DNA of 64,000 nt from an uncultured bacterium. Its GTDB lineage: Bacteria; Atribacterota; Atribacteria; Atribacterales; Caldatribacteriaceae. This document shows positions 39,273 to 64,000 of this stretch, in pieces (position 1 is the first letter of the stretch; each line of letters starts with the position of its first letter). The stretch lies in assembly GCA_937139415.1 (NCBI GenBank), contig CAKZPS010000022.1, positions 1 through 64,000 of the forward strand, written 5' to 3'. Made by a program: the position numbers and the translations under genes. A model generated the notes under the pieces. It did no database searches and had not been told where the DNA came from. It saw only the letters and a program-made list of their open reading frames with translations.

Positions 39273-39286
39273 CCTTTCTCCATGAA

Positions 39287-40309: not shown

Positions 40310-40325
40310 GATTTTTTCCGCCTTT

Positions 40326-42883: not shown

Positions 42884-42907
42884 GTGTTTCACTCCTCTCT
42901 CCAAACA

Positions 42908-46201: not shown

Positions 46202-46213
46202 ATTACTACCTCC

Positions 46214-46244: not shown

Positions 46245-46250
46245 TCTCAC

Positions 46251-47387
46251 TTACTCCTTCTCTGCATAAGCTTTCTTGATAGCCTCCCAGTCGGTTGGCT
46301 CTAAGGCGGGGTTGGGATAGAACTTATCAGCGTTTCCCTGCCACTCGATTCTCGGTCGAATATCCACGAATTGGGGAACCAGGTCCTTTAACCCCAACGC
46401 TAACATGACTGCGTAACGTGTTCCATACCAACCCCACTCGGGGAATCCATGCCAAGTTTCAGCAATGAGTCTTCCTTCACGAATACGTTCTACTGATTCC
46501 GGAGTGCCATCGTTGGTAAACACTCTCACTTCTGTTCTTTCCAGTCTTTCACAGGTCAACATGGCACCCAAGCCCATTTCATTGGAAGCAGCCCAGATGA
46601 AATCGAGAGTCCCCTTGGGGTTCGCAGAGAGAATGTCCTCGGTAACTTTAATAGCTTTCTCTCGATTCCAATCAGCAGGCAGGGTGGTGACGATTTCTAT
46701 CCCTGGAAATTGATCAATCACTGAGTGAAATCCTTTCAAACGTGCCGTGGAGAAGAATCCTCCTGCTACACCTTCAATGATGGCTCCCCGAAGTTTTACT
46801 TTATCTTTCAGTCCACCAATAATTTCCTGCGTGTACAAATCCTGCCAGAATTTCAAATCTAAGAAGGTATCCGGCGTAACTGGCAATGTCTCGCCCTCTC
46901 CTAAGACACCAGGACCCCCAAAGTAGTCAATGACCGCGTAAGCAGAAACGGTTCCCGCTACGGTATTATCAAACCCGATGTAACAATCAACATCTACATC
47001 GGCAATAGGCTCAAGAAGGTTGACTACGATAACCGGAATACCTGCTGCCTTAGCCTTTTGCAGAGCTGGTTTCACCACTTCTACTTCAATTGGCGAGATG
47101 GCAATAACGTTCACTTTTCTTTGAATGAAGTCTTCTATGATCGCAATCTGGTCTGCAAAAGCGGTATGTGATGCAGGCGCTCTGGTAACAATAGTGACCG
47201 GGATACCATGGTTACGCGCGTCTTCGGCACCTTTTTCAAAGAAGTCGGTGGCGGTTTTGAAAACTCCAGTAATATCAGGAGGAGTCCATCCAATGACGAT
47301 TTCAGGTATTTTTTCCTGAGCCCAAGTCAAACCAACCCATCCAACACACACCAAACCGACTAATAGCCAAACGAACTTTCTCACCAC
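46251..47387 (-). CDS. Periplasmic sugar-binding protein (locus A)
   Basis: About 378 residues. A signal peptide (MRKFVWLLVGLVCVGWVGLTWAQ region, cleaved after about residue 23) precedes a type I periplasmic-binding domain with FFEKGAEDARNHG, VNVIAISPIEVE and IPVIVVN segments. The ligand cannot be named. Of three possible starts (ATG 47393, GTG 47387, GTG 47384), GTG 47387 has the best spacing to AAGGGGG. First structural gene after the GntR gene. Confidence 0.88.
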   Translation of the reverse strand: MVRKFVWLLVGLVCVGWVGLTWAQEKIPEIVIGWTPPDITGVFKTATDFFEKGAEDARNHGIPVTIVTRAPASHTAFADQIAIIEDFIQRKVNVIAISPIEVEVVKPALQKAKAAGIPVIVVNLLEPIADVDVDCYIGFDNTVAGTVSAYAVIDYFGGPGVLGEGETLPVTPDTFLDLKFWQDLYTQEIIGGLKDKVKLRGAIIEGVAGGFFSTARLKGFHSVIDQFPGIEIVTTLPADWNREKAIKVTEDILSANPKGTLDFIWAASNEMGLGAMLTCERLERTEVRVFTNDGTPESVERIREGRLIAETWHGFPEWGWYGTRYAVMLALGLKDLVPQFVDIRPRIEWQGNADKFYPNPALEPTDWEAIKKAYAEKE

Positions 47388-47454
47388 GTCCATCCCCCTT
47401 TCGTCAATCATTCACTTGAGAAAACAAAAATGCCTAATGTGCTCCTTGTCCTCT

Positions 47455-48201
47455 TTACAGTTTGTTCATCACCTCCACCTTTACCCTCCCTTTGTCCCCT
47501 CGAAAACGAGACTGGAAGAAGTCCATGATGACTCCGCTCTCGGTAAAAGTAATATTTTCCATGAGCAAAATCGGCGCCCCAGGACTTATCTTCAAGAAAG
47601 AAGCGTCAACTTCATCGGCAATGGACACTTCCAGAGCAATTTCTGCTCGATACGGTTTCAAGCCATACTTCTCCGAGAGCAAGTGGTATAACGACTGATC
47701 CGTCAAATCTTCTTCTACGAGATGGGGACAAAGAGTATAGGGGATATGATTTTGGACACGCACCACCGGCTCGTTTTCCACGAAACGGAGTCTCTCAATA
47801 TGAATAATTTGGTCATGAGGTTCAAGACCAAGAAAACGGGCCACTCTTTTACCAGCTTCCTTTACCTCCATGCTCAATACTGTGGTTTTTACCGTTAAGC
47901 CTCTTTCAGCCATGTCATCGTAAAAAGTCACAAAACGTTGGACAAAGCCGTAGTTGATTTTAGGTTTTGAGATATACGTTCCTCGTCCTTTTTCCCGAAC
48001 CAAAAACCCCTCATGCACTAAGTCCTTAATAGCCTGTCGAACTGTAGGCCTACTGATGCCATACCGCTCAGAAAGCTCCCGTTCTGAGGGCAAAAGGTCA
48101 CCCGGCTTAAAGATCCCCTCTTCAATTTGCTCCCGCAACATTTCTTTCAACTGATAGTAGAGGGGTATCGGTACATTTCTATTCAATCGTCGTTCTGTCA
48201 A
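47455..48201 (-). CDS. GntR-family regulator with UTRA domain (locus A)
   Basis: About 248 residues. The N-terminal winged helix-turn-helix is complete (LPSERELSERYGISRPTVRQA, then GFLVREKGRGTYIS). The C-terminal UTRA ligand-binding domain is of the HutC/FarR group (RLRFVENEPVVRV, YHLLSEKYGL). It probably represses the operon it heads and is released by a pathway metabolite. TTG at 48199-48201 lies seven bases after AAGGGGG; an earlier TTG at 48207 is too close to that site. It is followed after about 65 bases by the binding protein gene. Confidence 0.88.
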   Translation of the reverse strand: MTERRLNRNVPIPLYYQLKEMLREQIEEGIFKPGDLLPSERELSERYGISRPTVRQAIKDLVHEGFLVREKGRGTYISKPKINYGFVQRFVTFYDDMAERGLTVKTTVLSMEVKEAGKRVARFLGLEPHDQIIHIERLRFVENEPVVRVQNHIPYTLCPHLVEEDLTDQSLYHLLSEKYGLKPYRAEIALEVSIADEVDASFLKISPGAPILLMENITFTESGVIMDFFQSRFRGDKGRVKVEVMNKL

Positions 48202-48262
48202 GGTCAAGCCCCCTTATCCATTCAGGAAATACGTCATAAGGTACTATTGTATTTACCAACTT

Positions 48263-49289: not shown

Positions 49290-49781
49290 ATGAAGCGACT
49301 AAAACCGGAACTCCCAAGGGCTATCTATGAGTTCCCTGATGGCCAACTGCGTTTAGTGAACTGGAAAGAAATACCTCCTATGGAGCTCGGTAACTGGGCA
49401 GGACTCCATGGAGAGATGGAAACAGAACTCATTGTCTGTCGCGAGGTAACAGGTTCCAAAATGACCGTAGTGGGGCGCTCTGTTTTTTTTCCCGGAGCAT
49501 ACCACGATCCCCACTTCCACCTCCACGCGGAAGAAGTCCTTTGGTGTTTGAGCGGCAAGGGCGTCACCGGAGGGGGGGATAAAGAGTATCTGCTCACCCC
49601 AGGAGACATTCAATTCGCTCCAGTAGGTGAAATCCACTGGCTACGGAATCCCTTCAACGAACCCTTAGAGTTCATCTGGATTTATAGCGGTGTCGCGATG
49701 CCCCAAGAAAGTGGATATGCCACTCCTGACCTTTTTGAGACCGCCATGGCCGTTATGAAAAGGGGCGAGATCCCAAAGTAG
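49290..49781 (+). CDS. Cupin-domain protein (locus B)
   Basis: 163 residues, one cupin barrel. First motif: DPHFHLHAEEVLWCLSGKG, with the His-x-His and Glu metal ligands. Second motif: LTPGDIQFAPVGEIHWLRNP, with the closing His. It could be a sugar isomerase, a sugar-acid epimerase or a binding protein; sequence alone does not decide. The ATG at 49290 follows GGAGGATC. It precedes the SDR gene by nine bases and both form a short plus-strand unit. Confidence 0.8.
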   Translation: MKRLKPELPRAIYEFPDGQLRLVNWKEIPPMELGNWAGLHGEMETELIVCREVTGSKMTVVGRSVFFPGAYHDPHFHLHAEEVLWCLSGKGVTGGGDKEYLLTPGDIQFAPVGEIHWLRNPFNEPLEFIWIYSGVAMPQESGYATPDLFETAMAVMKRGEIPK

Positions 49782-49790
49782 GAGGAAACC

Positions 49791-50603
49791 ATGAAAGAGT
49801 TGTGGGAGAAAGCCCTTGACGTCTTTTCTCTTTTTTGTCTTGACGGGAAAGTAGCTCTGGTTACCGGGGGTGGGAAGGGCCTTGGTGAGGCCATAGCCTA
49901 TGCCTTGGCGGGAGCTGGAGCTGATGTAGCGGTGGCGGGGAAAACCTTAGAGAATGTCTGTCGAGTAGCTGAAAATATTACAAAGATGGGAAGAAAATCT
50001 CTGCCCATTAAGGCCGATGTGAGAAATGAAGAAGACGTACAGAGAATGGTGGAGTCCGTTGTTCAAAAATTTGGCCGCCTTGATATTCTGGTCAATAACG
50101 CCGGGGTAGCCTCGGTACATCCCATTACTGATTTCTCTACCGAGGAATGGGAATACATCATGGATACCAATGCCAAGGGGGTCTTTCTCTGTGCTCGAGA
50201 GGCAGCAAAAGTGATGCTCAAGCAAAAAAAGGGGAAAATCATTAATATTTCTTCCTTACAAGGTTCAAGCGGAAGGGCCGGTGACCCTGCCTATGCCGCA
50301 AGCAAAGCTGCGGTAAATCTCATGACTATGGCTATGGCCTGCGAATGGGCACCATATGGAATTTGTGTAAACGCTATCGCTCCCACCTGGTGCTGGACGG
50401 ACCTTACAAAACCGATTCTGTTACAGGAAATCTTTTACGAGAGGCTCAAAGAACGCATACCGGCGCAAAGAGTAGGAAATCCGGAAGACCTCTTCGGAAT
50501 CGTGGTATTCTTAGCATCTGAGGCTTCCAACTTTGTTAACGGTGCCATCATCCCACTTGATGGGGGAGCCATTGCTTGCGACGGATTCCCTCCCGTTCCC
50601 TGA
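49791..50603 (+). CDS. Short-chain dehydrogenase, gluconate 5-dehydrogenase-like (locus B)
   Basis: 270 residues. SDR cofactor loop TGGGKGLGEA, NNAG, catalytic serine in NISSLQG, Tyr-Lys in YAASK, and C-terminal PLDGGAIACDG. The N-terminal DVFSLFCLDGKVALVTGG form is common in gluconate 5-dehydrogenases and related sugar-acid enzymes, but the substrate is not certain. Followed by a strong hairpin. Confidence 0.87.
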   Translation: MKELWEKALDVFSLFCLDGKVALVTGGGKGLGEAIAYALAGAGADVAVAGKTLENVCRVAENITKMGRKSLPIKADVRNEEDVQRMVESVVQKFGRLDILVNNAGVASVHPITDFSTEEWEYIMDTNAKGVFLCAREAAKVMLKQKKGKIINISSLQGSSGRAGDPAYAASKAAVNLMTMAMACEWAPYGICVNAIAPTWCWTDLTKPILLQEIFYERLKERIPAQRVGNPEDLFGIVVFLASEASNFVNGAIIPLDGGAIACDGFPPVP

Positions 50604-50615: not shown

Positions 50616-50649
50616 CTAAAAAGGGGCTGGATTCTATCCCAGCCCCTTT
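50616..50649. terminator. Bidirectional terminator between converging genes
   Basis: AAAGGGGCTGG (50620-50630), eight-base loop, CCAGCCCCTTT (50639-50649): an 11-pair stem. On the minus strand it is followed by TTTTTAGTTTT, so it best terminates the long minus-strand operon ending with the zinc dehydrogenase; on the plus strand it can also end the SDR transcript. Confidence 0.88.
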
Positions 50650-50656
50650 CAACCTT

Positions 50657-51721
50657 TCACGAACTCAATATTTCTCTTTTTGTCACATCTGGAGAGACAA
50701 AAATCTTGAGGAGGGCTCGGTTTTCCTTCCCCATAAGGAGAGCTGTTTCAAGTTCTTCAAGGGGGACTTTGAGGGAGAAGAGTGGACGAGGTTCTATTCG
50801 GCCGTACTCGAGGAGCTTAATGGCATCGGGCCAGTCGTTGCCCACTCCGGCGCAGGAACCTACCATACTCCGTTCGCCAAGGACAAAATCGAAGGGTTTT
50901 ACTCGTATGGTCGCGTCGGCTTCAGTGATTCCGAAAGCCGCCACCCGTCCTCCGGGGCGCGTCATAGCGATAGCCAACTCGTACGTCTCGGGGGTACCCA
51001 CCGCCTCGATGACAAAATCCGCCCCTCGTCCCTCGGTAAGCTTCTTCACCCTTTCCACCGGATCCTCAGTAGCAATATCCACGAGGTAATCAACACCCAA
51101 GATTTTTGCTTTTTCCATACGCTCTCTGTGTTTCCCAACGAGAATAACTGGGGCCGCTCCTTGGAACTTGGCAATCTGAGTATGGAGAATACCGAGCGTT
51201 CCATCACCGATAACCGCTACCGTGCTACCCAGGGTAACCTGCATCGCCTTAGCAGCGTGAATGGCACAAGATATGGGCTCCACGAAAGCACCCACTTCAA
51301 AACTAAGGGTGGAAGGAAGTTTATGCACTTGAGCAGCAGGAGCCTTCACGTACCCAGCAAAAGCGCCATCGGTATGAATGCCCAATTGTCGGAATTCGGG
51401 ACACATGAGCTTCTGCCCTCTTTTACAGTAGAAACACATACCGCAACTCATATTGATATCAGCTGTAACGTGGTCTTTGGGTTTGAGATTCTCCACCCCC
51501 TCTCCGACCTCCACGATTTCCCCGGAGAACTCGTGGCCAGGAATGAGTGGCAGGTACTCCCGGGAATACTTGCCGGTGTAAATACTGAAGTCCGTCCCAC
51601 ATATACCACAGGAACGAACCCTAATGAGGACTTCTCCCGGACCAATGCGGGGAATATCAACCTCACTAATTTCCAATCTTCCCGGTTCTAACACCACTGC
51701 CGCCCTCATTTTCCCCTGCAT
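50657..51721 (-). CDS. Zinc-dependent medium-chain dehydrogenase (locus B)
   Basis: 354 residues. Catalytic zinc ligands in CGICGTDFS and GHEFSG, structural zinc cysteines CGMCFYCKRGQKLMC, cofactor loop IGDGTLGILH. Resembles threonine/sorbitol dehydrogenase-type MDR enzymes and would oxidise a polyol, cyclitol or sugar acid. The ATG at 51719-51721 lies behind AGGAGGTG. Last gene of the operon; paralogue of the dehydrogenase at 39.3-40.3 kb but clearly divergent. Confidence 0.87.
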   Translation of the reverse strand: MQGKMRAAVVLEPGRLEISEVDIPRIGPGEVLIRVRSCGICGTDFSIYTGKYSREYLPLIPGHEFSGEIVEVGEGVENLKPKDHVTADINMSCGMCFYCKRGQKLMCPEFRQLGIHTDGAFAGYVKAPAAQVHKLPSTLSFEVGAFVEPISCAIHAAKAMQVTLGSTVAVIGDGTLGILHTQIAKFQGAAPVILVGKHRERMEKAKILGVDYLVDIATEDPVERVKKLTEGRGADFVIEAVGTPETYELAIAMTRPGGRVAAFGITEADATIRVKPFDFVLGERSMVGSCAGVGNDWPDAIKLLEYGRIEPRPLFSLKVPLEELETALLMGKENRALLKIFVSPDVTKREILSS

Positions 51722-51732: not shown

Positions 51733-53037
51733 CTACTCTCTCGGCACAATGGTAATAGCATCAAAGGGACAAATGACCGTACACATGGCACAACTTGAAC
51801 AGTAACGCTCATCTACCTCGGGTTGACCATCTACCATAGAAATGGCAGGACAGTACGAAGCGGCGCATCGACCACACAAAGTGCATCTGTCACGGTCAAT
51901 GCTTGCCTTGTAGTAGTAGAACTCTACTTCCGTAGAAGCCTTAAGGTACTTGAGTCCTAACCCTTTAAAATCCTCAATCTTCTGGTAACCACATTTCTTC
52001 ATGTACTCCTCAAGCCACTTATTGGTCTTGGAGATAAAGTCTATGCCGTGAAGTACAATTCCGGTAAGCGTCTGACAGGCGCCGGCACCGAGCATAATCG
52101 CCTCGGCAACGTGTTCCGGTGCAGTTATGCCTCCTCCAGCAAAGGTCTCGATATGGGGAATATTCTTCGAAATCAATGCCGTTGCTTTGTACATACTGAA
52201 ACGCAAAGCGGGGCCACCAATGTCAGAGAGAACATTGGCATCATCGCTTAAAGCGGGATACTTACCTCTTCCCCCGTTCCAGATATCCGGCGGGGGAACA
52301 ACAAAATACTTATGGGTAGTAACCACAAAGCGAGCACCAAGATTTGCCGCTTCCTCCGTCAGATACAACATTCGCGGGTAACCAACCTCAGGGGTGAGCT
52401 TAAAACCTACCGGGATATTCGTTGCCTTCACACAAGCTTCAAGGACCGGAAGGAAAATCTCCGGTGCGGCTCCCATCATCATCCCCCACTTGGCTTCGGG
52501 AGGGAGCCTTTTAGCATCGAGATGTCCCATAGCTCCCACCGGACATCCAGTGTTCAACTCAATGATGTCAGGACCAAGATCAGCAACCCTTTTGGTCTGT
52601 TCTGCCCAAGCTTGGGGATTCATATCGTGGACAAGGACCTGAGCAATAACGGCTACGCCTTTGGGGAGTGCTGGACGGATCTCCTCAAGGAGTTCCTTTG
52701 CCCAGCTGAGGTAGTTAAAAAGATTTTTAGCGGTGTAGATGTGGGCGATGACTTCCCGGTGCTGCGAATCGAGAACAATCTTCATCCATCTGCCTACATA
52801 GTTCTGACCCTTAAAGAGGGTGGGGAAATCGAGCTCTCTCTCCGCTTTGGTGGGTTCACCAGGGACAAGAGCAGGAATGTAGATAAAGCCTGCTCCGGCT
52901 TCAACATATTTCATGAAAAGTTCCGCCGCCTTTTTTCCTGGAAACCATGGCTTGTCGAGGTTATGTGGAGAAACTCCAAAGGGCGAACGCACCTTCACTC
53001 CCGCCAGGGTAGTAGAGATATCAACGGTCTCGGCCAT
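51733..53037 (-). CDS. DHODH/PreA-like flavoprotein with two 4Fe-4S clusters
   Basis: 434 residues. Residues 1 to about 370 form an FMN-binding TIM barrel of the dihydroorotate/dihydropyrimidine dehydrogenase superfamily: LNTGCPVGAMGHLDAK in the position of the family NxxCPxG active-site loop, FKLTPEVGYPRM with the conserved lysine, and ETFAGGGITAPEHVAEAIMLGA as the phosphate-binding end. The C-terminal 60 residues hold two ferredoxin motifs, CTLCGRCAASYCPA and CSSCAMCTVICP. This layout matches PreA of bacterial dihydropyrimidine dehydrogenase, but no PreT partner or pyrimidine gene is near. ATG at 53035-53037 behind AGGAGG. Substrate unknown; its operon suggests a sugar- or cyclitol-derived enone or dione (inference). 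Confidence 0.82.
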   Translation of the reverse strand: MAETVDISTTLAGVKVRSPFGVSPHNLDKPWFPGKKAAELFMKYVEAGAGFIYIPALVPGEPTKAERELDFPTLFKGQNYVGRWMKIVLDSQHREVIAHIYTAKNLFNYLSWAKELLEEIRPALPKGVAVIAQVLVHDMNPQAWAEQTKRVADLGPDIIELNTGCPVGAMGHLDAKRLPPEAKWGMMMGAAPEIFLPVLEACVKATNIPVGFKLTPEVGYPRMLYLTEEAANLGARFVVTTHKYFVVPPPDIWNGGRGKYPALSDDANVLSDIGGPALRFSMYKATALISKNIPHIETFAGGGITAPEHVAEAIMLGAGACQTLTGIVLHGIDFISKTNKWLEEYMKKCGYQKIEDFKGLGLKYLKASTEVEFYYYKASIDRDRCTLCGRCAASYCPAISMVDGQPEVDERYCSSCAMCTVICPFDAITIVPRE

Positions 53038-54061: not shown

Positions 54062-55012
54062 TCACTCTTTAACTTTATAAGCAGCTACAACCACAATCAC
54101 TACGATACCCTTTATAATCCACTGCCAGAAGCCCGAAACGCCCAGGAGATTCAGAATATTGTTGATGAGAGCAATGATAAGAACTCCGGCAATAGTCCCT
54201 TCAATACCTCCTTTTCCTCCGGCAAGCGATGTTCCCCCAATAAGTACGGCGGTAATGGACTCAAGTTCAAATCCCTGACCCATCAGAGGGTCTCCAATAC
54301 CCAAGCGGCTGGCAAGAAAAAGTCCAGTTAGAGCAGCCATGAATCCCGAAATGACATACACCGCTACCTTGGCCACTGACACACGAATACCGCTCAAGCG
54401 AGCGATTTCTTGATTTCCTCCTATCGCGTACACATGGAGTCCTAATCCGGTCCGACGGAGAAGAAAAAGAAAAAAGGAGAGGAGAATAACCCAAAAAACA
54501 AAGGCAAACGGTATAGCTCCCAACTGTCCATTAGCAAAGAACATAAAACCTCTTGTGACTCCTCCAACGGGTTTTTTGGTATAGAGGAGCACACTCCCTT
54601 GGAGGATAGCCGACATAGCTAAAGTAGCAATGAAGGGAGGCACACGAAGATAAGCCACAAGCGTTCCATTGGTCAAACCCACGAGAACACCAATCCCCAG
54701 AACGAGAAACACGATAGGAAAAACAAGGGTAGGATTTCCGATCATGATTCCTGAGGTGAGACATGCCGCAAGGCTTATGAGAGAACCGACCGAGAGATCA
54801 ATACCTCCCGAGAGGATGACAATGGTCTGACCGATACCTACAATGCCAAAAGCCACAGCCTGCCGTAAAAGATTGGAGATATTATATACCGTCCGGAACT
54901 GAGGAGCAGTAGAAGCAGCAAAGACGAAAAAGACGAAGAGAATAACATACACAAAAAAAAGTGTCGGATTACCTCGCAAAATCCTCTGTATAAGCGTCAC
55001 CATATTCCTCAC
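54062..55012 (-). CDS. Ribose-type ABC transporter permease 2 (locus B)
   Basis: 316 residues, about nine helices, RbsC family: LSGGIDLSVGSLISLAA, AIGGNQEIARLSGIRVSVAK and AVLIGGTSLAGGKGGIEGT. GTG at 55010-55012 follows GAGAGG by six bases; an ATG three codons later is possible. Coded after the ATPase; a second, different permease gene lies at 57.7 kb in the same operon. Confidence 0.9.
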   Translation of the reverse strand: MRNMVTLIQRILRGNPTLFFVYVILFVFFVFAASTAPQFRTVYNISNLLRQAVAFGIVGIGQTIVILSGGIDLSVGSLISLAACLTSGIMIGNPTLVFPIVFLVLGIGVLVGLTNGTLVAYLRVPPFIATLAMSAILQGSVLLYTKKPVGGVTRGFMFFANGQLGAIPFAFVFWVILLSFFLFLLRRTGLGLHVYAIGGNQEIARLSGIRVSVAKVAVYVISGFMAALTGLFLASRLGIGDPLMGQGFELESITAVLIGGTSLAGGKGGIEGTIAGVLIIALINNILNLLGVSGFWQWIIKGIVVIVVVAAYKVKE

Positions 55013-55015
55013 CTA

Positions 55016-56521
55016 TCACCTCTCAACGTGAAGTCCCGCGGCAAAGTACATGATTCTTTCCTCGTCCACTCTTTCTCCCCAACCGAACTCCCTTACGATG
55101 GCTCCATCGTGCATGACGTAAATCCGGTCACTCATTCCGATAACCTCGGGAAGCTCAGAAGAAATCATAAGGATAGCTTTACCCTGAGAAGCCAACTGGC
55201 GCATGAGATGATAGATTTCCTGCTTTGCTCCTACATCAATGCCCCGCGTGGGTTCATCGAAAATGAGAAAATCGGGTCGTGTTGCCAACCATTTTGCCAA
55301 AACAACTTTCTGTTGATTCCCCCCACTCAAATTCTGTACCCGCTGGTAGAAGTGGGGAGTCTTGATACGCAAGTCGGCGACAAATTTCTGAACGAGTCCT
55401 GTTTCTCTCCTGCGGTTCAGGAAAAAGGTTGACCGCATCTCATCGAGTACCGCCATAACGCAGTTGTCTTTCACCGAAAGCCCGAGACACAGTCCTTCAC
55501 TCTTTCGATCCTCTGGTGCAAAACCAACCCCTTCCGCAATAGCTCTTTGGGGAGAGTGTAATTTCACCGTCTTCCCTTTGACCACGATTTCTCCCGAATA
55601 ATGGGGGTAAAAACCAAAAAGAGCCTTCGCTAAGTCGGTTCTCCCTGAACCTACAAGACCAAAGAAACCGACGATTTCACCGGCGCGAACGGAAAAATTT
55701 ACATTTTTGAGTATCCGAGGAACAGAGAGGTTACGTACCTCCACTACCATCGGGCCTGTTTCTTTTGCTTTCTCAGGGAACGTCTCTGAGAAGGAACGAC
55801 CTACCATAAGCTTCACCAGCTTATCGCGGTCAAGCTCCCCAATGGAGTAAGTACCAATACACTTTCCATCCTTGAGAACGGTCACACGGTCGGCAATACG
55901 AAAGACCTCTTCCAAGCGATGGGAGATGTACACGATGGTGACACCTTTGCTTTTAAGGTCGCGGATGATTCCAAAGAGCTTTTCCACTTCGGTTTCACTC
56001 AGCGAGGCAGTAGGCTCATCCATGACCAGGATTTTAGCGTTCAGCGAGAGCGCTTTAGCGATTTCCACCTGCTGCTGTTGGGCCACACTGAGATTTCTCA
56101 CCATGGTCTGAGGGGCAATACCAACTCCTACTCGTGCTAAGAGTGACTCGGCTTCTCGTATCATGGTCGAATAGCTCAACACGCGAAGCCGGCCACGGTG
56201 CTCTCTTCCCAGAAATATGTTCTGGACAACATTGAGATCCGGTAAGAGATTGAGTTCTTGATAGATGATACTTATGCCTCTTTCCCAAGCACTTTGGGGA
56301 GTAGGAATGAATACTTTTTCACCTTCAAGGTATATTTCCCCCTCATCGGGTTGTAGTGCCCCAGCAAGGATTTTCATCAGCGTGGATTTCCCTGCACCGT
56401 TCTCTCCCACAAGAGCGTGTACTTCCCCTTGGTTCACGGTGAAGGTCACTCGATCGAGTGCCTTGACACCGGGGAAATACTTGGAAATATTGACCATTCG
56501 CAACGCTTCTTCTTGTTTCAT
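55016..56521 (-). CDS. Sugar ABC transporter ATPase, two nucleotide-binding domains (locus B)
   Basis: 501 residues, RbsA/MglA type. First domain GENGAGKST, LSVAQQQQVEIAKAL, VMDEPTASLS; second domain GLVGSGRTD, LSGGNQQKVVLAKWL, IFDEPTRGIDVG. ATG at 56519-56521 follows GGAGG. A hairpin separates it from the binding protein gene upstream. It should power both permeases of this operon. Confidence 0.92.
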   Translation of the reverse strand: MKQEEALRMVNISKYFPGVKALDRVTFTVNQGEVHALVGENGAGKSTLMKILAGALQPDEGEIYLEGEKVFIPTPQSAWERGISIIYQELNLLPDLNVVQNIFLGREHRGRLRVLSYSTMIREAESLLARVGVGIAPQTMVRNLSVAQQQQVEIAKALSLNAKILVMDEPTASLSETEVEKLFGIIRDLKSKGVTIVYISHRLEEVFRIADRVTVLKDGKCIGTYSIGELDRDKLVKLMVGRSFSETFPEKAKETGPMVVEVRNLSVPRILKNVNFSVRAGEIVGFFGLVGSGRTDLAKALFGFYPHYSGEIVVKGKTVKLHSPQRAIAEGVGFAPEDRKSEGLCLGLSVKDNCVMAVLDEMRSTFFLNRRRETGLVQKFVADLRIKTPHFYQRVQNLSGGNQQKVVLAKWLATRPDFLIFDEPTRGIDVGAKQEIYHLMRQLASQGKAILMISSELPEVIGMSDRIYVMHDGAIVREFGWGERVDEERIMYFAAGLHVER

Positions 56522-56544
56522 AGTGCCTCCACAATCCTTCCCAT

Positions 56545-56569
56545 ACCCCGGGGTCTATAACCCCGGGGT
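56545..56569. repeat. Intergenic hairpin between binding protein and ATPase genes
   Basis: ACCCCGGGG-7-CCCCGGGGT, a perfect nine-pair GC-rich stem-loop without a following T-run on either strand. It sits after the binding protein stop codon. As with the malE-malF type of intergenic hairpin, it may protect the binding protein message from 3' decay (inference). Confidence 0.8.
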
Positions 56570-56575
56570 TATTCC

Positions 56576-57622
56576 TCACCGTTTCGGTAGCCACTCTTCA
56601 GGAAGTCGGCTATCCATGAAGAATTCGTCCGGAAGGTCCATACGAACGAACTTATCAAGATTCTCTTTGGTGATAATCACTCGCGGACAGTCAACATACC
56701 GGGGTACGGCAATACCGTTGAGAATGTCGATAGCTTTCTGAACGGCAACTTGCCCCTGCCAAGTCGGGAAACTTACCGCAACACCCTCAAACCCCATTTC
56801 TTTCCACATTTTCAAGTACCGGTTCATATCCTCACCAGTAACCGGTGGAATGGGCTTTCCTGCTTCTTGTAAGGCTTCGATGGCACCGCTGCCCTGGAGC
56901 GCGCTATCTGCCCACACACCATCAATCTGAGGATACTTTTGAATGAGAGTAGCCATGACTTGCTTCCCCAACACCGGCGACCATTCACAATACTGCTGTT
57001 CAAGAACCTTGATCCCCGGGTAATTCTTCAAAGCATCCATGGCTCCCTTAAGTCGATCTTCAGCGGGACCAGCACCGGCGATACCGCTCAACATGACAAT
57101 ATTTCCCTTACCACCGAGCTTTTCTGCCAACCATTCCGCCATGATCTTTCCCATCTGATAGTTACTCGATTCTACGAAGGTTACGTAAGCATCTGTAGTG
57201 ACTTTCCGATCCACCACTACAACAGGAACGCCTTTCTCCATGGCTTTTTCTACTGCCGGATTCAAAGCCGCCTCGGTTGCTGGAGAGATAATGAGCAGGT
57301 CAATTCCCTTTGCCAGGAGATCTTCAACGTCGGCCAACTGCTTCGTGGGATTATCCTGTGCGTCGGTCACATAGAATTCTGCAATCTCCGGATGCTTAGA
57401 AGCCTCATACTCAACATGTCGCGCAAAGAATACTCGCCAACTATTGGAAATCGAAGCATTACTGAAACCAATCTTCCAAGGCGGGGTCTTGGCGTACATC
57501 GAGGTATCGACGAGCATCTTATCCGAATCTAAGAATTTTACCCAACCCTGAGCAAGTGCCACGCCGGCAAGTACTATCCAAAATAGTAATCCAACGCAGA
57601 GAACCACAAGAACTCTCTTCAT
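56576..57622 (-). CDS. Periplasmic sugar-binding protein (locus B)
   Basis: 348 residues. Signal peptide (MKRVLVVLCVGLLFWIVLAG and the next few residues, cleavage after ALA), then a type I binding domain with TPPWKIGFSNASISNSWR, DLLIISPATEAALNPAVEKA, VPVVVVDRKV and a GVWADSALQG hinge region, close to ribose/rhamnose-type binders. The ATG at 57620-57622 is nine bases after AGGGAGGG. Ligand unknown. Confidence 0.89.
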   Translation of the reverse strand: MKRVLVVLCVGLLFWIVLAGVALAQGWVKFLDSDKMLVDTSMYAKTPPWKIGFSNASISNSWRVFFARHVEYEASKHPEIAEFYVTDAQDNPTKQLADVEDLLAKGIDLLIISPATEAALNPAVEKAMEKGVPVVVVDRKVTTDAYVTFVESSNYQMGKIMAEWLAEKLGGKGNIVMLSGIAGAGPAEDRLKGAMDALKNYPGIKVLEQQYCEWSPVLGKQVMATLIQKYPQIDGVWADSALQGSGAIEALQEAGKPIPPVTGEDMNRYLKMWKEMGFEGVAVSFPTWQGQVAVQKAIDILNGIAVPRYVDCPRVIITKENLDKFVRMDLPDEFFMDSRLPEEWLPKR

Positions 57623-57724
57623 ACACACCATCCCTCCCTCTTTCTTCAAGGTTTTTTAAAAGACCTACTCATTTCCCAAATCACGATCCCGTAAAACAGT
57701 ATCTCTTCCCGAGTATCTTCGTTT

Positions 57725-58627
57725 TCACCTCCTCTCGCCCGATACTTTGACAAAGGAGTAAAAGATAACTGCCGCAGCTACAACCAGACCTTTAACAATT
57801 TGTTGGAATTGGTAGGGTAACCCGGCAAGGAGCACAATATTGGAAAGAATAGTGATGAGGAGCACACCCACGACTGTTCCCCCCATACCACCTTCTCCCC
57901 CGGCCAAGGATGTTCCTCCCACCACTACAGCAGCAATGGCGTCAAGTTCATATCCTTTACCCGCCCAGTTGTCTCCAAAACCGAGATACCCGGCAAGTAC
58001 AAGTCCACCAAAGGCAGCGAAAATACCGGAGAGCGCATAGACGCTGAGAATGATGTTGGGAACGTTGATGCCGGAGTACAGGGCAGCCACTTTGTTGTCA
58101 CCAACGGCATAGATTTTCCTTCCATAAGCAGAGCGTTGAAGAATGGCTTCCATAACGAGTGCCAAGAAAAGGAAAATGATCACTGAAGCGGGGACAAAAC
58201 CTATCCCACCCCTTCCCAAAAACCGCAACCAAGAAGGAATGCTCCCGAAAGGAGCTCCCTTGGTGTATACAAATCGTATCCCCTGGAAAATGAGAGCTGT
58301 CCCGAGAGTAACAATAAAGGGCGGTGCATTCCTACGGGTAGTAATAATCCCATTGAGAAATCCTGCAAGAGCGCCAATAGCGAGGCAGAAAAGGGTTATC
58401 GGGATGACCATGGAGTTTTTGCCGGCCATCAAAGCGGCGGCAAAGACACAGCTTGTAGCCATGATCGAAGCAATGGAGAGATCGATACCTCCAGAGAGAA
58501 TAACCAGTGTTTGCCCTACACTAACCACTCCCAAGGCAGAAGCCTGTTGAAGAACGTTAAAGATATTTTGAGGTCGGTAAAAAATTGGGGATACGATTCC
58601 TGCGACAACAAAAAGCGCTACGAGCAC
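57725..58627 (-). CDS. Ribose-type ABC transporter permease 1 (locus B), start probably further upstream
   Basis: At least 300 residues, RbsC family: LSGGIDLSIASIMATS, AVGDNKVAALYSGINVPN and AVVVGGTSLAGGEGGMGGTVVG. The GTG at 58627 is the only ordinary start in frame, but it lacks a ribosome binding site and would cut the first membrane helix. The frame runs on upstream for 28 codons of permease-like sequence (ERTELRRRPKWILALGAFFV region) to a CTG at 58709-58711 that lies ten bases after AAGGAG, so a CTG start is plausible. It is directly behind the Gfo/Idh gene. Confidence 0.85.
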   Translation of the reverse strand: MLVALFVVAGIVSPIFYRPQNIFNVLQQASALGVVSVGQTLVILSGGIDLSIASIMATSCVFAAALMAGKNSMVIPITLFCLAIGALAGFLNGIITTRRNAPPFIVTLGTALIFQGIRFVYTKGAPFGSIPSWLRFLGRGGIGFVPASVIIFLFLALVMEAILQRSAYGRKIYAVGDNKVAALYSGINVPNIILSVYALSGIFAAFGGLVLAGYLGFGDNWAGKGYELDAIAAVVVGGTSLAGGEGGMGGTVVGVLLITILSNIVLLAGLPYQFQQIVKGLVVAAAVIFYSFVKVSGERR

Positions 58628-58713: not shown

Positions 58714-59895
58714 TTAGCTCACTCCTTTGAGTACTTCCTTGACCTCAACCCTTTCACCCCGCTCTGCGGAGAGCAACGCTGCGTCAAGGACAGCTTGACA
58801 TTTCAGTCCATCATAGAAATTCGGCTCAGGCGTGGTATCATCTTCAATACATCTCAAGAAATCGGCAAATTCGTGAATAAAGGTGTGCTCATAACCAATG
58901 ATATGACCGGGAGGCCACCACGCCGAGATGTAAGGGTGTACTCCCTCAGTAGCGAGAATAGTACGGAATCCCTGGACCTCTAAGTCTTCCTCCCGAGAAA
59001 AGAACTGGAGCTCGTTCATGCGCTCAAAGTTGAAAACGAGACTCCCTTTGCTCCCGTAAATCTCAAAGTAATTGTAATTTTTCCGCCCCGGAGCAAAACG
59101 GGTAGCTTCAAAAGCTCCCAGGACACCGTTTTCAAACTCAGCAACGACGAATGAAGCGTCCTCAACAGTGACTTCGCCCACACCTTCTCCGCTCTTTGCC
59201 GTCAACATAGTGGAAAGTTCCCTCTCTTCCGCAGGGAGCTTACGGTACTTGATAAAGTTGGTCGTCATACACATGACACTTTTCACATCCCCTACAAGGT
59301 AATGGGCAAGATCGATGAGGTGAGAATTCAGATCCCCATGAGGACCACTACCAGCAACCTCTTTGCGCAGTTTCCAGATGAGAGGGAAATCAGGATCGAC
59401 AATCCAGTCTTGAAGGTAGGCTGCCCGCCAGTGAAAGATTTTTCCAATCTTCCCATCCTCGATGAGCTTTCTTGCCAGCCTCACCGCTGGAACCCTGCGA
59501 TAGTTGAAACCCACCATATGTTTAATTTTTGCTTCTTCTGCTGCCTGAAGCATTTCTTTAGCTTCTCGGACATTCATGGCCAAGGGCTTCTCACAAAAAA
59601 TGTGTTTCTTGTTCTGAGCAGCAGCTTTAGCAATAGCACAGTGGGTATCGGTAGAAGTGCAGATATCGATGACGTCGATATCCTCTCTCTTCACTACCTC
59701 TTCCCAAGATGTGGAAAATTCCTCCCAACCCCATCTCTCTGCCGCTTTCTTAAGAGGTTCGAGATGTCTTCCACAGATCACTTTTGGTACCGGGGAATAG
59801 GTAAGATCGAAAAAGAAGTTGACACTTTTTAAAGCATGGCTATGCGCTTTCCCCATGAATTTGTAGCCAATCATACCCACATTGAGTGGCTTCAC
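58714..59895 (-). CDS. Gfo/Idh/MocA-family dehydrogenase (locus B)
   Basis: 393 residues, longer than the locus A homologue. NAD loop MIGYKFMGKAHSHA (GxxxxGxAH), the EKPLAMNVREA block, and the SHLIDLAHYLVGDVKSV catalytic region with His and Asp. GTG at 59893-59895 follows GGAGG by eight bases. Such enzymes oxidise inositols, glucosides or sugar acids. It comes 15 bases after the cupin gene. Confidence 0.88.
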   Translation of the reverse strand: MKPLNVGMIGYKFMGKAHSHALKSVNFFFDLTYSPVPKVICGRHLEPLKKAAERWGWEEFSTSWEEVVKREDIDVIDICTSTDTHCAIAKAAAQNKKHIFCEKPLAMNVREAKEMLQAAEEAKIKHMVGFNYRRVPAVRLARKLIEDGKIGKIFHWRAAYLQDWIVDPDFPLIWKLRKEVAGSGPHGDLNSHLIDLAHYLVGDVKSVMCMTTNFIKYRKLPAEERELSTMLTAKSGEGVGEVTVEDASFVVAEFENGVLGAFEATRFAPGRKNYNYFEIYGSKGSLVFNFERMNELQFFSREEDLEVQGFRTILATEGVHPYISAWWPPGHIIGYEHTFIHEFADFLRCIEDDTTPEPNFYDGLKCQAVLDAALLSAERGERVEVKEVLKGVS

Positions 59896-59910: not shown

Positions 59911-60303
59911 TCATTTTTTGGGAACTGCAGCCTCAATGACAATGATACGGAGGTCGGTATCACCAATATTGCGGAAGGTATGTGAACTCCCATGTTTGGT
60001 CAAACAGACATCTCCTGGCTCCATGATGGCCGTTTCCCCGTCGACCGTCATTTCGCCTCTCCCCTCTACCACAAAGTAGAGTTCCTCATTCCCCTCGTGC
60101 TTGTGAAGACCAATGGATGTACCCGGAGGAAGGGTGGTCTCATGCATGAAGCGGAGGCAACTATCAAAATCTTCAGGGAAACCGGGAACTCCAGGAAGCT
60201 TGGGTTCGAGACCAAGAAGCTGACGTACAAAGATCGTGCCTACTCCATCGTGACAATTTTCCACCGTTGTCTGGGGAACATCTTTACGCCCCCGTTTAAT
60301 CAT
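59911..60303 (-). CDS. Small cupin protein (locus B)
   Basis: 130 residues starting MIKRGRKDVPQTTVEN. Metal ligands are in SIGLHKHEGNEELYFVVEG and VCLTKHGSSHTFRN. Similar small cupins occur beside sugar operons, with sensing, isomerase or oxygenase roles that cannot be told apart here. The ATG at 60301-60303 follows GGGGGG; the longer open frame upstream is out of place because it crosses the promoter. First gene of its operon. Confidence 0.85.
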   Translation of the reverse strand: MIKRGRKDVPQTTVENCHDGVGTIFVRQLLGLEPKLPGVPGFPEDFDSCLRFMHETTLPPGTSIGLHKHEGNEELYFVVEGRGEMTVDGETAIMEPGDVCLTKHGSSHTFRNIGDTDLRIIVIEAAVPKK

Positions 60304-60329
60304 TGTGCACACCCCCCAATACATTAATA

Positions 60330-60347
60330 TGTCAACTTGTATTGACA
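60330..60347. promoter_or_regulatory. Palindromic operator at the cupin operon promoter
   Basis: TGTCAACTTGTATTGACA: TGTCAA and TTGACA arms around a six-base centre. It abuts the -10 box and covers the expected transcription start, the usual position for a repressor site. The GntR/UTRA protein coded at the right end of the window is the natural candidate. Confidence 0.7.
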
Positions 60348-60375
60348 TTATATAATGTAGCTCCAACCTTGTAAA
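60347..60375 (-). promoter_or_regulatory. Promoter of the cupin/Gfo-Idh/ABC/DHODH operon
   Basis: Minus strand TTTACA (60370-60375), 17 bases, TATAAT (60347-60352). It starts after the aldehyde dehydrogenase gene, so the ten-kilobase catabolic operon has its own promoter. Confidence 0.85.
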
Positions 60376-60400
60376 GTAAACCAAGGAATCAAGAAAACTC

Positions 60401-61840
60401 CTATAGGACCTCCATTTTGATATGCTTCCACTCAAGATACTCTTCAAGGCCATGCCAGCCCAACTCCACCCCCAGTCCACTTTCCTTCCATCCTGGGTAA
60501 GGAGCATAGAGGCTGTCAGGAGTTATGTTATTGATGGCCACCGAACCCCATTCCAGATTCTCCGCTACATAAAATGCCTTTCTTGCGTCCTCAGTGTAAA
60601 CGTAGGCCACAAGTCCATAGGGAACACTATTAGCCTTCGCAATGACCTCATCAATAGTCTTAAAGGTATCAATACCTACAATGGGACCAAAGGGCTCCTC
60701 TCGCATGAGCTTCAGGTCCTCTTTTACATTCACAACCACTGTAGGTTCAAAATAGAACCCCCGAGAGAGACGAGAGTCTTCCGGTTTCTTCCCCCCACAG
60801 CAAATACGCGCTCCTTTTTCTTGAGCATCTTTCACAAATTCCTCCATTCGTCGCACACCGGCCTCGTTCGCCATCGGCCCCACATCAGGAGCCGGTTCCT
60901 CAAAGGGTCCCCCGAGGCGAAGCTTTTTGGTTTCCTCCAAAAAGGCTTCCACGTATCGCTCATAGAGGGGTTCTTCCACAAAGACTCGATTGACCGAGTT
61001 ACAGATCTGTCCAGCGTTCCGGAAAGCTCGGCGGACTCCATCTTTCACTGCCCGTTCAAAGTTGGCATCGGCAAAAACGATGAAGGGTGAATGCCCCCCA
61101 AGTTCAAGGATGAGTCGCTTAACCGTTTGGGCCGACGCTTCAATGAACTCCTTTCCCGTAGCCGTGGAACCAGTCAGGGCTACAAGGCGCACTAAGGGGT
61201 TAGAGAATATCTCTTCGCTTATTAAAGCATTGTCTCCACTCACAACGTTAAGTATCCCTTCTGGTAATCCCGCATCGTTGCAGGCCCGCACAAATTCAAT
61301 AGTGGAAAGAGGAGTTTCCCGCGAGGGCTTAACGATGACCGTACACCCTGCTGAGAGCGCTGGAGCAATTTTCCAGGAAATGAGGCTTACCGGATAGTTC
61401 CACGCTGCTATAGCCACTACCACACCCACCGGTTGGCGCAGGGCAAAGCTCCGCAGTTTCGGAGCGCTCGAAGGAGGAATTTCTCCAAGAACATTGATAC
61501 CAAGACAGGCATAGTACTCTAAACAGTCTGCCGCTCCAAGAACCTCTCTTTCGGCATCAGAAAAAGCTTTACCCTGTTCCCGGGCCAAAAGGGTAGCAAT
61601 ATCTTTTGACCGAGAACGAACATTTTCCGCTGCTTTCAAAAGGAGACGGGTTCGCTCCACTGGAAACTTCTTTGACCAGGATTGGAAAGCCGTATGGGCT
61701 CCCCCTATGGCCCGGCGAAGTTGTTCCAGAGTCACTTTGGAGACGGTAGCAAAAACCTCCCCGTTTGAGGGGTCCACAACTTCTACGACTCCTATCCCTT
61801 CCTCCCATTTTCCGTTGATGAACGAGTGGTATGAAAGCAT
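60401..61840 (-). CDS. NAD(P)-dependent aldehyde dehydrogenase
   Basis: 479 residues. Catalytic Cys280 in RNAGQICNSVNR, general base Glu246 in LELGGHS, oxyanion Asn148 in AAWNYP, cofactor Lys171 in VIVKPSRETP and the GSTATGK loop are all present, so it should be active. The overall form is near succinate-semialdehyde and lactaldehyde dehydrogenases. It would oxidise a sugar-derived aldehyde such as glycolaldehyde, lactaldehyde or a semialdehyde. The ATG at 61838-61840 follows AAGGAGG; it is four bases after the kinase gene. Confidence 0.9.
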   Translation of the reverse strand: MLSYHSFINGKWEEGIGVVEVVDPSNGEVFATVSKVTLEQLRRAIGGAHTAFQSWSKKFPVERTRLLLKAAENVRSRSKDIATLLAREQGKAFSDAEREVLGAADCLEYYACLGINVLGEIPPSSAPKLRSFALRQPVGVVVAIAAWNYPVSLISWKIAPALSAGCTVIVKPSRETPLSTIEFVRACNDAGLPEGILNVVSGDNALISEEIFSNPLVRLVALTGSTATGKEFIEASAQTVKRLILELGGHSPFIVFADANFERAVKDGVRRAFRNAGQICNSVNRVFVEEPLYERYVEAFLEETKKLRLGGPFEEPAPDVGPMANEAGVRRMEEFVKDAQEKGARICCGGKKPEDSRLSRGFYFEPTVVVNVKEDLKLMREEPFGPIVGIDTFKTIDEVIAKANSVPYGLVAYVYTEDARKAFYVAENLEWGSVAINNITPDSLYAPYPGWKESGLGVELGWHGLEEYLEWKHIKMEVL

Positions 61841-61844
61841 GTCG

Positions 61845-63344
61845 TTATTCCTCCTTCCGATACTTTTCGAAAGCAGCCTGGAGAAGGTCATGAAATTCTC
61901 GGAAAAGGGTGTACTGTCTCTCATAAATCTTTTGATGCGCCGCCGTAGGGGTGTAGCGCCTTCGAATCTTTAGCCATCGTTTACCCAACGAGGACACACT
62001 CTCTCCTGTAACCCCCGAAAAAGCAAGCATTGCTGCCCCCACGATGCCTCCCTCCACCTCTTGGAGAGATATAACCTCTTTCCCATAGATATCCGCCTTT
62101 ATCTGGCACCACAGTGAACTCTTTGCCCCTCCTCCAATGGCCTGCATTTCCCTAATGTTCTCTCCACTCAACTTCTCAATCTCCTCAAGGCTCATTTTGA
62201 GGTCGAAACAGACTCCTTCCATCACCGCCCGAGCAAAGTGACCCCGCCGATGGGAAGGCAAAATCCCAAAGAAAACTCCTCGAGCCCAGGGGGAACCGAA
62301 AAGTCGTTCTCCCAAAAGATAGGGAAAGAAGAGGAGGCCCTCCGCCCCCGGAGGTGTTTGGACTGCCTCCTCGTCAATCCGCATATAGGTAGTAACTCCG
62401 TCATCCCTCACGTACAACGCATCTCGCAGCCATTTCATGCCTCCTCCACCACTGTCCAGAATCCCGAAGCTGATCCACCCATCCACCGCATGGTGCAGAT
62501 TCATGAGGCGAGGAGAAAGAAGGGGCTGCGAAAGATACACAGAGACATCAGCTGCTGTACCCGTTACATCGCACGATCGACCCTTTTCAACTATTCCTCC
62601 CCCTAAAAGAAGGCAGAGCATGTCCCCTGCTCCACAGATGACCGGGACACCCTGCTTAAGACCAAGGAAACGGACCAAGTCCTCCTTCAATCTTCCCACT
62701 ACTTCAAGAGAAGGCACAAGGGGTGGGAGTTTTGAAGGGTCGATCTCGAAAAGAGAGAGAAGCTCCAAATCCCAGGTTCTACTCTTCCAGGAAAAGAGGA
62801 AAGTACCTGAAGCTTCGGAAAAGTCAATGTACTGTGTTCCAGTAAGAGCAAAATTCAGATAATCCTTAGCGGTGAGGAAAACAGAAGTTGCCTGGTACAC
62901 CTCGGGAAGGTTTTCCCGAATCCAACGAATTTTGGGAGCAATCCAGTTAGGAATGAGGAGATTCGCCGCTTTCTCGATCTGTTCTTTTGGGGAAAGGAGA
63001 GCATTCACTTGGATACAGATCTCACTAGAGCGCTTGTCACACCAGATGGGAACCCGTGGCATGAGAAGACGTCCCTCAAAGTCGAGAGGAACGACGGCGT
63101 GCATCTGAGCGCTGACCCCAAGAGAGAGCACTTCCACTGAGGGAACTTCCTTGAGAACTTCTTTCATACACACTAAAGAAGAGGAAAGCCACTCCTCTGG
63201 ATTCTGTTCTGCCCATCCTGGCTTAGGAGAGAAGAATTCGAGAGCTCTTCCTCGAATGGCAAGCACCTCTCCTGCTTCATCCACCAGTGCCGCCCGGACG
63301 CTCTCTGTACCTACATCAACCACGAGTACCGCCTTTTTAGGCAT
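61845..63344 (-). CDS. Xylulokinase-like FGGY kinase (locus B)
   Basis: 499 residues. AVLVVDVGTESVRAALVD at the N-terminus (DVGTES instead of the usual DLGTQS), SAQMHAVVPLD, PIWCDKRS, the catalytic ICGAGDMLCLLLGGG, and AIGGGAKSSLWCQI. Third FGGY kinase in this window and different from both others. ATG at 63342-63344, behind GGGAGAATG. Substrate not determined; a ketose or polyol is expected. Confidence 0.87.
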   Translation of the reverse strand: MPKKAVLVVDVGTESVRAALVDEAGEVLAIRGRALEFFSPKPGWAEQNPEEWLSSSLVCMKEVLKEVPSVEVLSLGVSAQMHAVVPLDFEGRLLMPRVPIWCDKRSSEICIQVNALLSPKEQIEKAANLLIPNWIAPKIRWIRENLPEVYQATSVFLTAKDYLNFALTGTQYIDFSEASGTFLFSWKSRTWDLELLSLFEIDPSKLPPLVPSLEVVGRLKEDLVRFLGLKQGVPVICGAGDMLCLLLGGGIVEKGRSCDVTGTAADVSVYLSQPLLSPRLMNLHHAVDGWISFGILDSGGGGMKWLRDALYVRDDGVTTYMRIDEEAVQTPPGAEGLLFFPYLLGERLFGSPWARGVFFGILPSHRRGHFARAVMEGVCFDLKMSLEEIEKLSGENIREMQAIGGGAKSSLWCQIKADIYGKEVISLQEVEGGIVGAAMLAFSGVTGESVSSLGKRWLKIRRRYTPTAAHQKIYERQYTLFREFHDLLQAAFEKYRKEE

Positions 63345-63347: not shown

Positions 63348-63731
63348 TCATTCTCCCTTTTTCACCGTCACCCACACGTAGGAGAGGGGAAGGTCAAAAG
63401 GATTTTCCGCGCGGTGAAATTCTCCCCCGGGAATGTACACCACATCGCCATTTTCAACCTCAAAGCGTTCTACGCCAATTTCCATGATACCTTTCCCCGA
63501 GGTGACAAAGTATACTTCTTCTAATGGAGCGTGCTCGTGTCCCCGGGTACTGCAATGAGGATAAATGACAGTATATCCCACGTTGATGCGACCAGTTTCG
63601 GTATTCTCTGCACGAAGGAGCATCAATGTATCACGAATAACATGAGTACCAACCTCTGCGAGAACATCTCCAAAAGTATTCTTCCCCGTTTCCGGTGAAC
63701 ACTGAAAGAGATTCGCTTTTTTATATACCAA
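63348..63731 (-). CDS. Small cupin protein beside the kinase (locus B)
   Basis: 127 residues. Cupin motifs TRGHEHAPLEEVYFVTSGKG and VVYIPGGEFHRAENP with the metal-binding histidines and glutamate. TTG at 63729-63731 lies eight bases after GGGAGG and overlaps the end of the GntR gene by 11 bases. Function unknown; may be an isomerase or a sensor for the locus. Confidence 0.82.
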   Translation of the reverse strand: MVYKKANLFQCSPETGKNTFGDVLAEVGTHVIRDTLMLLRAENTETGRINVGYTVIYPHCSTRGHEHAPLEEVYFVTSGKGIMEIGVERFEVENGDVVYIPGGEFHRAENPFDLPLSYVWVTVKKGE

Positions 63732-64000
63732 GTGGAAGACCTCCCTCTATTTTTTTGTATTTTTTATTTTTTTGTATTTTTGGTCTACCTTCAAGGTAGA
63801 CTTTGTACTCGTACTTATCGGCACGAATGACGGAGATAACTACTTCAAAGGGAGTACCGTTCTCGAGATAGGTAATCCTTACTGTGTGAAAAAGTGGTAT
63901 CTTTTCAGGTATTTGCAAGAGATCTGCCTCAAGAGGCCCACTGAGGTACGCTTCAATGGTCTCAACGGCCCGATGAAGCACAAGACCGTATTCTTCCTCC
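63721..64000 (-). CDS. GntR-family regulator, UTRA domain only (runs off window end)
   Basis: The last 92 or so residues of a regulator whose N-terminus is outside the window. LVLHRAVETIEAYLSGPLEA, IPLFHTVRITYLENGTPFEVVISVIRADKYEYKV is the typical end of a UTRA ligand-binding domain. After it comes an unusual Lys/Asn-rich tail (QKNKKYKKIEGG), coded by a T-rich tandem repeat. It is cotranscribed with the cupin, kinase and aldehyde dehydrogenase genes and may bind the palindrome at 60.3 kb (inference). Confidence 0.8.
   Translation of the reverse strand, partial: EEEYGLVLHRAVETIEAYLSGPLEADLLQIPEKIPLFHTVRITYLENGTPFEVVISVIRADKYEYKVYLEGRPKIQKNKKYKKIEGGLPLGI
63749..63801. repeat. T-rich tandem repeat and perfect palindrome inside the GntR 3' end
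   Basis: Two near-identical copies of TATTTTTTTGTATTTTT lie side by side at 63749-63781, followed by the perfect inverted repeat GTCTACCTTCAAGGTAGAC (63783-63801, nine-pair arms around one base). Both are inside the coding sequence. Confidence 0.85.

Follow-up and report, generated by a model that had tools for sequence, protein, structure and literature searches.

Why should an enzyme built like dihydropyrimidine dehydrogenase (DPD) be encoded within a sugar operon? The question is raised by a gene, here called P0001, in a stretch of 64,000 nucleotides (the window) from an uncultured member of the Atribacterota, a deep-branching and oxygen-shunning bacterium. The DHODH/DPD fold is known chiefly through pyrimidine metabolism, and we found no sugar-linked DPD-like enzyme in the searchable literature on levoglucosan, C-glycosides, inositol and Caldatribacterium. 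If the reading developed below is true, the clade of P0001 shows the recruitment of this fold to carbohydrate chemistry, and a ferredoxin-coupled step enters the sugar breakdown of an anaerobe.

The gene, its product and its operon

P0001 is an intact ORF with an ATG start, 434 codons, zero internal stops and a ribosome-binding site (AGGAGGT) 9 nt upstream of the ATG; it is single-copy in the host assembly (2.3 Mb, 96% complete). Compared with the nearest orthologue, pN is 0.058 and pS 0.757, a value at which synonymous sites are saturated; as pN is far under this saturated pS, selection on P0001 is strong. With this low pN and seven orthologues in three phyla, P0001 is more than a chance ORF.

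The initial annotation described the product as a DHODH-type FMN barrel joined to a two-cluster ferredoxin domain, and Pfam, cysteine conservation and fold comparison all bear this architecture out. Fer4 domains are found above cut-off at residues 378-429, and DHO_dh (PF01180) gives 25.6 bits, just under its gathering score of 27. The cluster cysteines at 385, 388, 391 and 396 (first motif, CxxCxxCxxxxCP) and at 413, 416, 419 and 423 (second motif, CxxCxxCxxxCP) are invariant, eight out of eight, across the eight orthologous sequences. The top fold match of the AlphaFold2 model (mean pLDDT 78.3, low at residues 78-105 and 167-185) is pig DPD, 1gte, with an E value of 9e-24.

P0001 is the twelfth gene of an apparent 13-gene operon whose members all share the minus strand and are never more than 86 nt apart; Table 1 follows the gene order, from the GntR regulator to the zinc dehydrogenase. 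Judging from spacing, strand and terminator, the 13 genes would form a single transcript, whose end is likely marked by the strong terminator-like hairpin that closes the table. As was noticed from the outset, P0001 stands between a protein of the keto-sugar isomerase type (the TIM barrel) and a zinc dehydrogenase, behind an ABC importer (54062-58627), and no pyrimidine gene is near: the operon has none, and the nearest one identified, for CTP synthase (32678-34396), is 17 kb off. No PreT-like gene was recognised within the operon. Repeats in the region amount to short, chance-like matches.

Table 1. Features of the P0001 operon in the window, in gene order
Feature	Position	Strand	Basis or remark
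GntR/UTRA regulator, first operon gene	63721..64000, on to 64578 past the window (L044:3721-4578)	-	
Small cupin protein	63348..63731	-	
FGGY kinase, xylulokinase-like	61845..63344	-	365.9 bits, cut-off 380
Aldehyde dehydrogenase, SSADH-like	60401..61924	-	
Cupin protein	59911..60507	-	real start probably downstream of ORF start
Gfo/Idh/MocA dehydrogenase, levoglucosan-dehydrogenase-like	58714..59895	-	404.9 bits, cut-off 650; PDB 6a3f 321 bits
ABC sugar importer permease 1	57725..58627	-	
ABC sugar-binding protein, RbsB-like	56576..57649	-	
ABC sugar importer ATPase, two ABC domains, AraG/RbsA type	55016..56521	-	
ABC sugar importer permease 2, CUT2/ribose type	54062..55012	-	
PF01261 TIM-barrel protein, LgdB2/AtHYD-like, 326 residues	53059..54039	-	best PDB 2zds 157 bits, 8ro4 97 bits
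P0001, FMN/iron-sulfur enzyme, 434 aa	51733..53037	-	ORF, Pfam, curated models, alignment, fold match
P0001, DHODH/DPD-type FMN barrel	residues ~1-345		
P0001, C-terminal 2x[4Fe-4S] ferredoxin domain	residues ~374-434		
Zinc-dependent dehydrogenase, last operon gene	50657..51721	-	Tdh/IolM-like, under both cut-offs
Intrinsic terminator-like hairpin, 13 pairs, U tail	50619..50650	-	6 nt 3' of zinc dehydrogenase

Besides, the window contains a second sugar operon at 37723-48207, which comprises genes for GntR, a binding protein, an SDR, an ATPase, a permease, an IolG-like Gfo, an FGGY kinase, a zinc dehydrogenase, a GPI-type cupin and a weakly AroE-like protein. In another genome (G017, L043) the first genes of an operon of this type come directly after the P0001 operon, and because of this adjacency the two operons may serve related substrates. 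A cupin and a KduD-like SDR (49290-50603, plus strand) converge on the operon end; they also accompany the operon in G011 (L039).

A clade set apart from the pyrimidine enzymes

The active site was mapped by aligning P0001 to DPD and eight other homologues (16 homologues with the clade). For the DPD residues we assume the roles known from DPD/DHODH structures, i.e. C671 as proton donor, K574 as FMN lysine, N736 and T737 in pyrimidine binding. Cys165 of P0001 corresponds to C671 and is aligned in all 16 homologues; Asn162 and Lys213, equivalent to N668 and K709, are also kept, invariant in the eight clade members. At other positions the clade has its own residues: the FMN lysine K574, retained in all eight other sampled homologues, is Pro55 in eight of eight clade members, N736 and T737 are likewise replaced throughout by His242 and Lys243, and S670 by an invariant Gly164. 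Clade-specific inserts occur near residues 24-32, 76-108 and 168-184. For the N609/E611 contacts of DPD the alignments disagree, and the confidence of the P0001 model is low at 78-105.

In the tree the clade is monophyletic (100/100), and its stem measures 4.8 changes per site. Matches at 22-29% identity, tried as further members, are set apart by this tree and keep the FMN lysine. Against the curated PreA model NF006183, P0001 scores 123.8 bits for a cut-off of 335, when the PreA of genome G024 (L070) scores 476.9. Neither PreT nor Pyd genes (PydB, PydC) were recognised in the operon or in the orthologous loci, and the genome of P0001 has no dihydropyrimidinase above the curated cut-off; it carries a separate DHODH-like gene (C63:31320-32198). 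Identity with PreA/PydA and with DHODH was considered and rejected, the grounds being model cut-offs and active-site residues. As K574, N736 and T737 are replaced in all eight members, which form a separate clade on a long stem, P0001 is by its sequence a protein of PreA superfamily and architecture, but not PreA, PydA or PyrD. With PreA/PydA2 and full-length DPD (1gte) it shares the FMN barrel, the C-terminal two-cluster domain and the equivalents of the catalytic Cys, Asn668 and Lys709; it differs by Pro, Gly, His and Lys in place of K574, S670, N736 and T737, and by being without PreT partner or pyrimidine genes in its operon. With PyrD (PF01180) the barrel fold and the catalytic Cys loop are common, but P0001 has a fused ferredoxin domain, lacks the substrate-binding Asn-Ser/Thr pair and stays below the gathering score.

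Other PreA-like proteins, scoring 200-243 bits (cut-off 335), were met by or near UbiD-family decarboxylases, two in Aerophobota (L063:4460-7126 and L064:7896-10567) and one in the Actinobacteria phylum (L066:2356-7969). Their location suggests further non-pyrimidine members of the superfamily, which might act on aromatics. One more PreA-like protein (L065:7258-10561, genome G454) has a gene of the trimethylamine-corrinoid methyltransferase family nearby.

Conservation of the sugar neighbourhood

The clade counts eight members including the window sequence, a small set with several orthologues on short contigs. The seven orthologues are 67-89% identical to P0001: five come from other Atribacterota (81-89%), one from an Aerophobetes bin (69%) and one from an Actinobacteria bin (67%). 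No further member was found in 397 genomes of the phylum of the Actinobacteria bin or in 17 Aerophobota, nor in the class of that bin, IMG/VR or plasmids. The plasmid matches are ordinary PreA at about 26% identity or less, and PHROGs gave zero matches.

A survey of the neighbourhoods of homologues had been proposed with the initial annotation, and it agrees with a link to sugars: all orthologues with readable flanks have sugar genes beside them, and the counter-case named with that annotation, a lack of any tie to sugar genes among homologues, does not hold. The TIM barrel accompanies P0001 in seven of the eight members (the six Atribacterota and the Aerophobetes bin), and LgdA-like dehydrogenases with an ABC importer are near on the longer contigs, i.e. 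the window, G016, G017 and the Aerophobetes bin. The triad TIM barrel–P0001–zinc dehydrogenase is kept in 6/6 Atribacterota, and around it the cupin-kinase-ALDH and cupin-Gfo-ABC modules are shuffled, for example in G017. The order at the Aerophobetes locus is binding protein, ATPase, permease, a second TIM barrel (rhamnose/xylose-isomerase-like), the P0001 orthologue, two LgdA-like Gfo and the TIM barrel. Next to the Actinobacteria orthologue there are an IolG-like Gfo and a distant sulfoquinovose-isomerase-like protein; as the contig is short and these neighbours lie on the opposite strand, the sugar link is weaker there.

Close orthologues of the TIM barrel (at least 75% identity) occur in exactly the six genomes, out of 50, that bear P0001. 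Under free choice such a match would arise once in C(50,6), i.e. 15.9 million. Given the physical linkage of the genes and the kinship of the genomes, however, the figure only says that the TIM barrel and P0001 travel together. The zinc dehydrogenase has the same distribution, truncated by the contig end in G008. More distant TIM homologues (51-54%) of genus g5 lie behind ABC importers without P0001; the TIM family alone thus does not need P0001. At the g5 loci (L101:9762-10724, and equivalents L102 and L103) a 51% homologue ends another CUT2 importer operon and faces an IolC/ribokinase-like kinase and an MtaA-like methyltransferase, a P0001-like gene being absent.

Relatives of the neighbouring enzymes

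Two solved structures are clear relatives of the TIM barrel, 2zds, which is uncharacterised, and 8ro4 (E 1e-26), deposited as a 2-hydroxy-3-keto-glucal hydratase. The Glu-Asp-His-Glu positions of the latter align with the operon protein, where they would bind a metal as in the family; the likeness to the IolE model is weak (35 bits, cut-off 290). The Gfo/Idh/MocA protein is nearest to 4h3v (404 bits) and to levoglucosan dehydrogenase 6a3f; it gives 404.9 bits with the levoglucosan dehydrogenase model, of which it misses the curated cut-off, versus 136 with IolG. The operon neighbours miss the curated cut-offs of LgdA, XylB, IolE, IolM and Tdh, so their names should be read at the family level.

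The levoglucosan pathway of Bacillus smithii starts with oxidation at C3 by LgdA; LgdB1 then eliminates to 1,5-anhydro-D-erythro-hex-1-en-3-ulose (2-hydroxy-3-keto-glucal), LgdB2, of 36 kDa, hydrates this compound (elimination being also possible) and LgdC reduces C3 (PMC7676230). The OGE/HYD glycoside pathway of Agrobacterium is analogous (PMC10628242). Because the relatives of the TIM barrel, similar in size to LgdB2, include a 2-hydroxy-3-keto-glucal hydratase, the operon resembles these oxidation-elimination-hydration routes, with which it shares an LgdA-like dehydrogenase, an LgdB2/HYD-like TIM barrel and an ABC sugar importer. It differs in several respects: a zinc dehydrogenase stands in the place of LgdC, a kinase and an aldehyde dehydrogenase are extra, and an iron-sulfur flavoenzyme, unmentioned in the operon descriptions of both pathways (PMC7676230, PMC10628242), is present. 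A second Gfo (LgdC) and a second TIM barrel (LgdB1) are absent from the window operon; the Aerophobetes locus (L008) has a second, LgdA-like Gfo and a second TIM barrel.

A candidate reaction for P0001

The homologies of the TIM barrel to the glucal hydratase and of the Gfo protein to levoglucosan dehydrogenase make an unsaturated keto-sugar a concrete candidate substrate. P0001 probably adds or removes hydrogen at the C=C bond of an oxidised sugar. More specifically, we read it as a stand-alone FMN/2x[4Fe-4S] oxidoreductase which departed from the pyrimidine family and acts on a keto-sugar of the surrounding pathway, a proposal to which we give slightly less than even credence. The importer would take up an anhydrosugar, a glycoside or a related polyol, of which the LgdA-like Gfo/Idh/MocA protein would oxidise a ring hydroxyl with NAD+, at C3 by analogy. 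The metal-dependent TIM barrel would then eliminate and/or hydrate around a 1,2-unsaturated 3-keto-sugar of the 2-hydroxy-3-keto-glucal type, O5-C1=C2(OH)-C3=O. P0001 would hydrogenate the enone C=C: FMN N5 would deliver a hydride to the beta carbon and Cys165 would protonate the alpha carbon, in the manner of DPD at C6 and C5 of uracil, with electrons coming from reduced ferredoxin through the C-terminal clusters. The zinc dehydrogenase, and perhaps the kinase and the aldehyde dehydrogenase, would process the product.

We infer the reduction of an enone mainly because this vinylogous ester resembles uracil, whose vinylogous amide N1-C6=C5-C4=O is laid out in the same way. The terms "C3" and "glucal" themselves rest on homology, as the Gfo and TIM proteins are under the equivalog cut-offs of all named functions. 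Moreover, a reductase is not required, since the known levoglucosan and glycoside pathways hydrate the enone and do not reduce it, and it is hard to see how the pathway would go on from the 1,5-anhydro-ketohexitol that reduction yields. A changed type of reaction is another possible meaning of the lost FMN lysine.

As regards electrons, PydAc of Clostridium chromiireducens is a PreA-like protein without NADPH module that reduces uracil with reduced ferredoxin (PMC7332683). Like P0001, it has no FAD/NADPH module, feeds FMN through ferredoxin-type clusters and works in a strict anaerobe; unlike P0001, it has two ferredoxin domains (or a separate second one), acts on uracil and belongs to a Pyd cluster (PMC7332683). 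This precedent, the eight cysteines and the operon without recognised PreT-like gene make a ferredoxin-fed reduction the likelier direction, and P0001 may, by analogy, take its electrons from reduced ferredoxin. The initial annotation had proposed a ferredoxin-linked step on a keto-sugar or a cyclitol rather than pyrimidine chemistry. The replaced pyrimidine-binding residues and FMN lysine and the sugar linkage favour the choice of substrate; the ferredoxin partner, on the other hand, is not new for a PreA-like enzyme, being known from PydAc. The proposal as a whole is partly supported; it appears plausible, survived the available tests and is narrowed here to unsaturated keto-sugars as the candidate class of substrates.

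Taken at its boldest, the activity would be new: 1,2-unsaturated 3-keto-sugars would be reduced (or formed by desaturation) in a ferredoxin-dependent way by an enzyme derived from the DPD fold through the replaced pyrimidine-binding residues, as a fifth step of an oxidation-elimination sugar route in uncultured anaerobes. We advance this tentatively, with much the same credence as the keto-sugar reading above. If true, it makes available an enzyme that reduces the C=C of keto-glycals, intermediates of use in synthesis, and the claim is directly testable, the predicted 2-hydroxy-3-keto-glucal being preparable with known enzymes.

Other readings of the locus

That P0001 is a true dihydropyrimidine or dihydroorotate dehydrogenase, placed in a sugar operon by accident, is highly improbable: its fold, cofactors and catalytic Cys are those of such enzymes, but its PreA score is far from the cut-off, the residues N736, T737 and K574 are replaced clade-wide, and the genome encodes a separate DHODH-like protein and lacks a dihydropyrimidinase that passes the cut-off. 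The reverse reaction, a desaturation, is unlikely. The Gfo protein would make a 3-keto-1,5-anhydrohexitol, P0001 would desaturate it to 2-hydroxy-3-keto-glucal, the TIM barrel would hydrate this glucal to a 3-keto-sugar and the zinc dehydrogenase would reduce the latter, 1,5-anhydrohexitols serving as carbon source. Each core gene thereby receives an ordered role, the TIM barrel acting as a hydratase in line with the name of its relative 8ro4, and DHODH shows that the same fold is capable of oxidation as well as of reduction. By known potentials, however, the transfer of electrons from the desaturation of a ketone to ferredoxin is uphill.

A cyclitol route ranks next and is quite unlikely. Here the Gfo protein would make an inosose from inositol, the IolE-like TIM barrel would dehydrate it and P0001 would reduce the enol-dione to a deoxy-keto-cyclitol. 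The weak likenesses of the TIM barrel to IolE and of the zinc dehydrogenase to IolM go in this direction, as do the IolG-like Gfo proteins of the neighbouring operon and beside the Actinobacteria orthologue; but the operon Gfo is far nearer to levoglucosan dehydrogenase than to IolG, and the TIM barrel, whose kinship with the glucal hydratase is clear, resembles the IolE model only weakly. Less probable again is the cleavage of a glycoside by the operon, with P0001 disposing of electrons by reducing the aglycone released, be it unsaturated or aromatic. The operon is without recognised aglycone-handling gene and imports through a CUT2 system, the type for monosaccharides; nevertheless beta-elimination pathways do set aglycones free (PMC10628242), and in Aerophobota and Actinobacteria bins distant homologues of P0001 have UbiD-type decarboxylases next to them or in the vicinity, which suggests relatives that handle aromatics.
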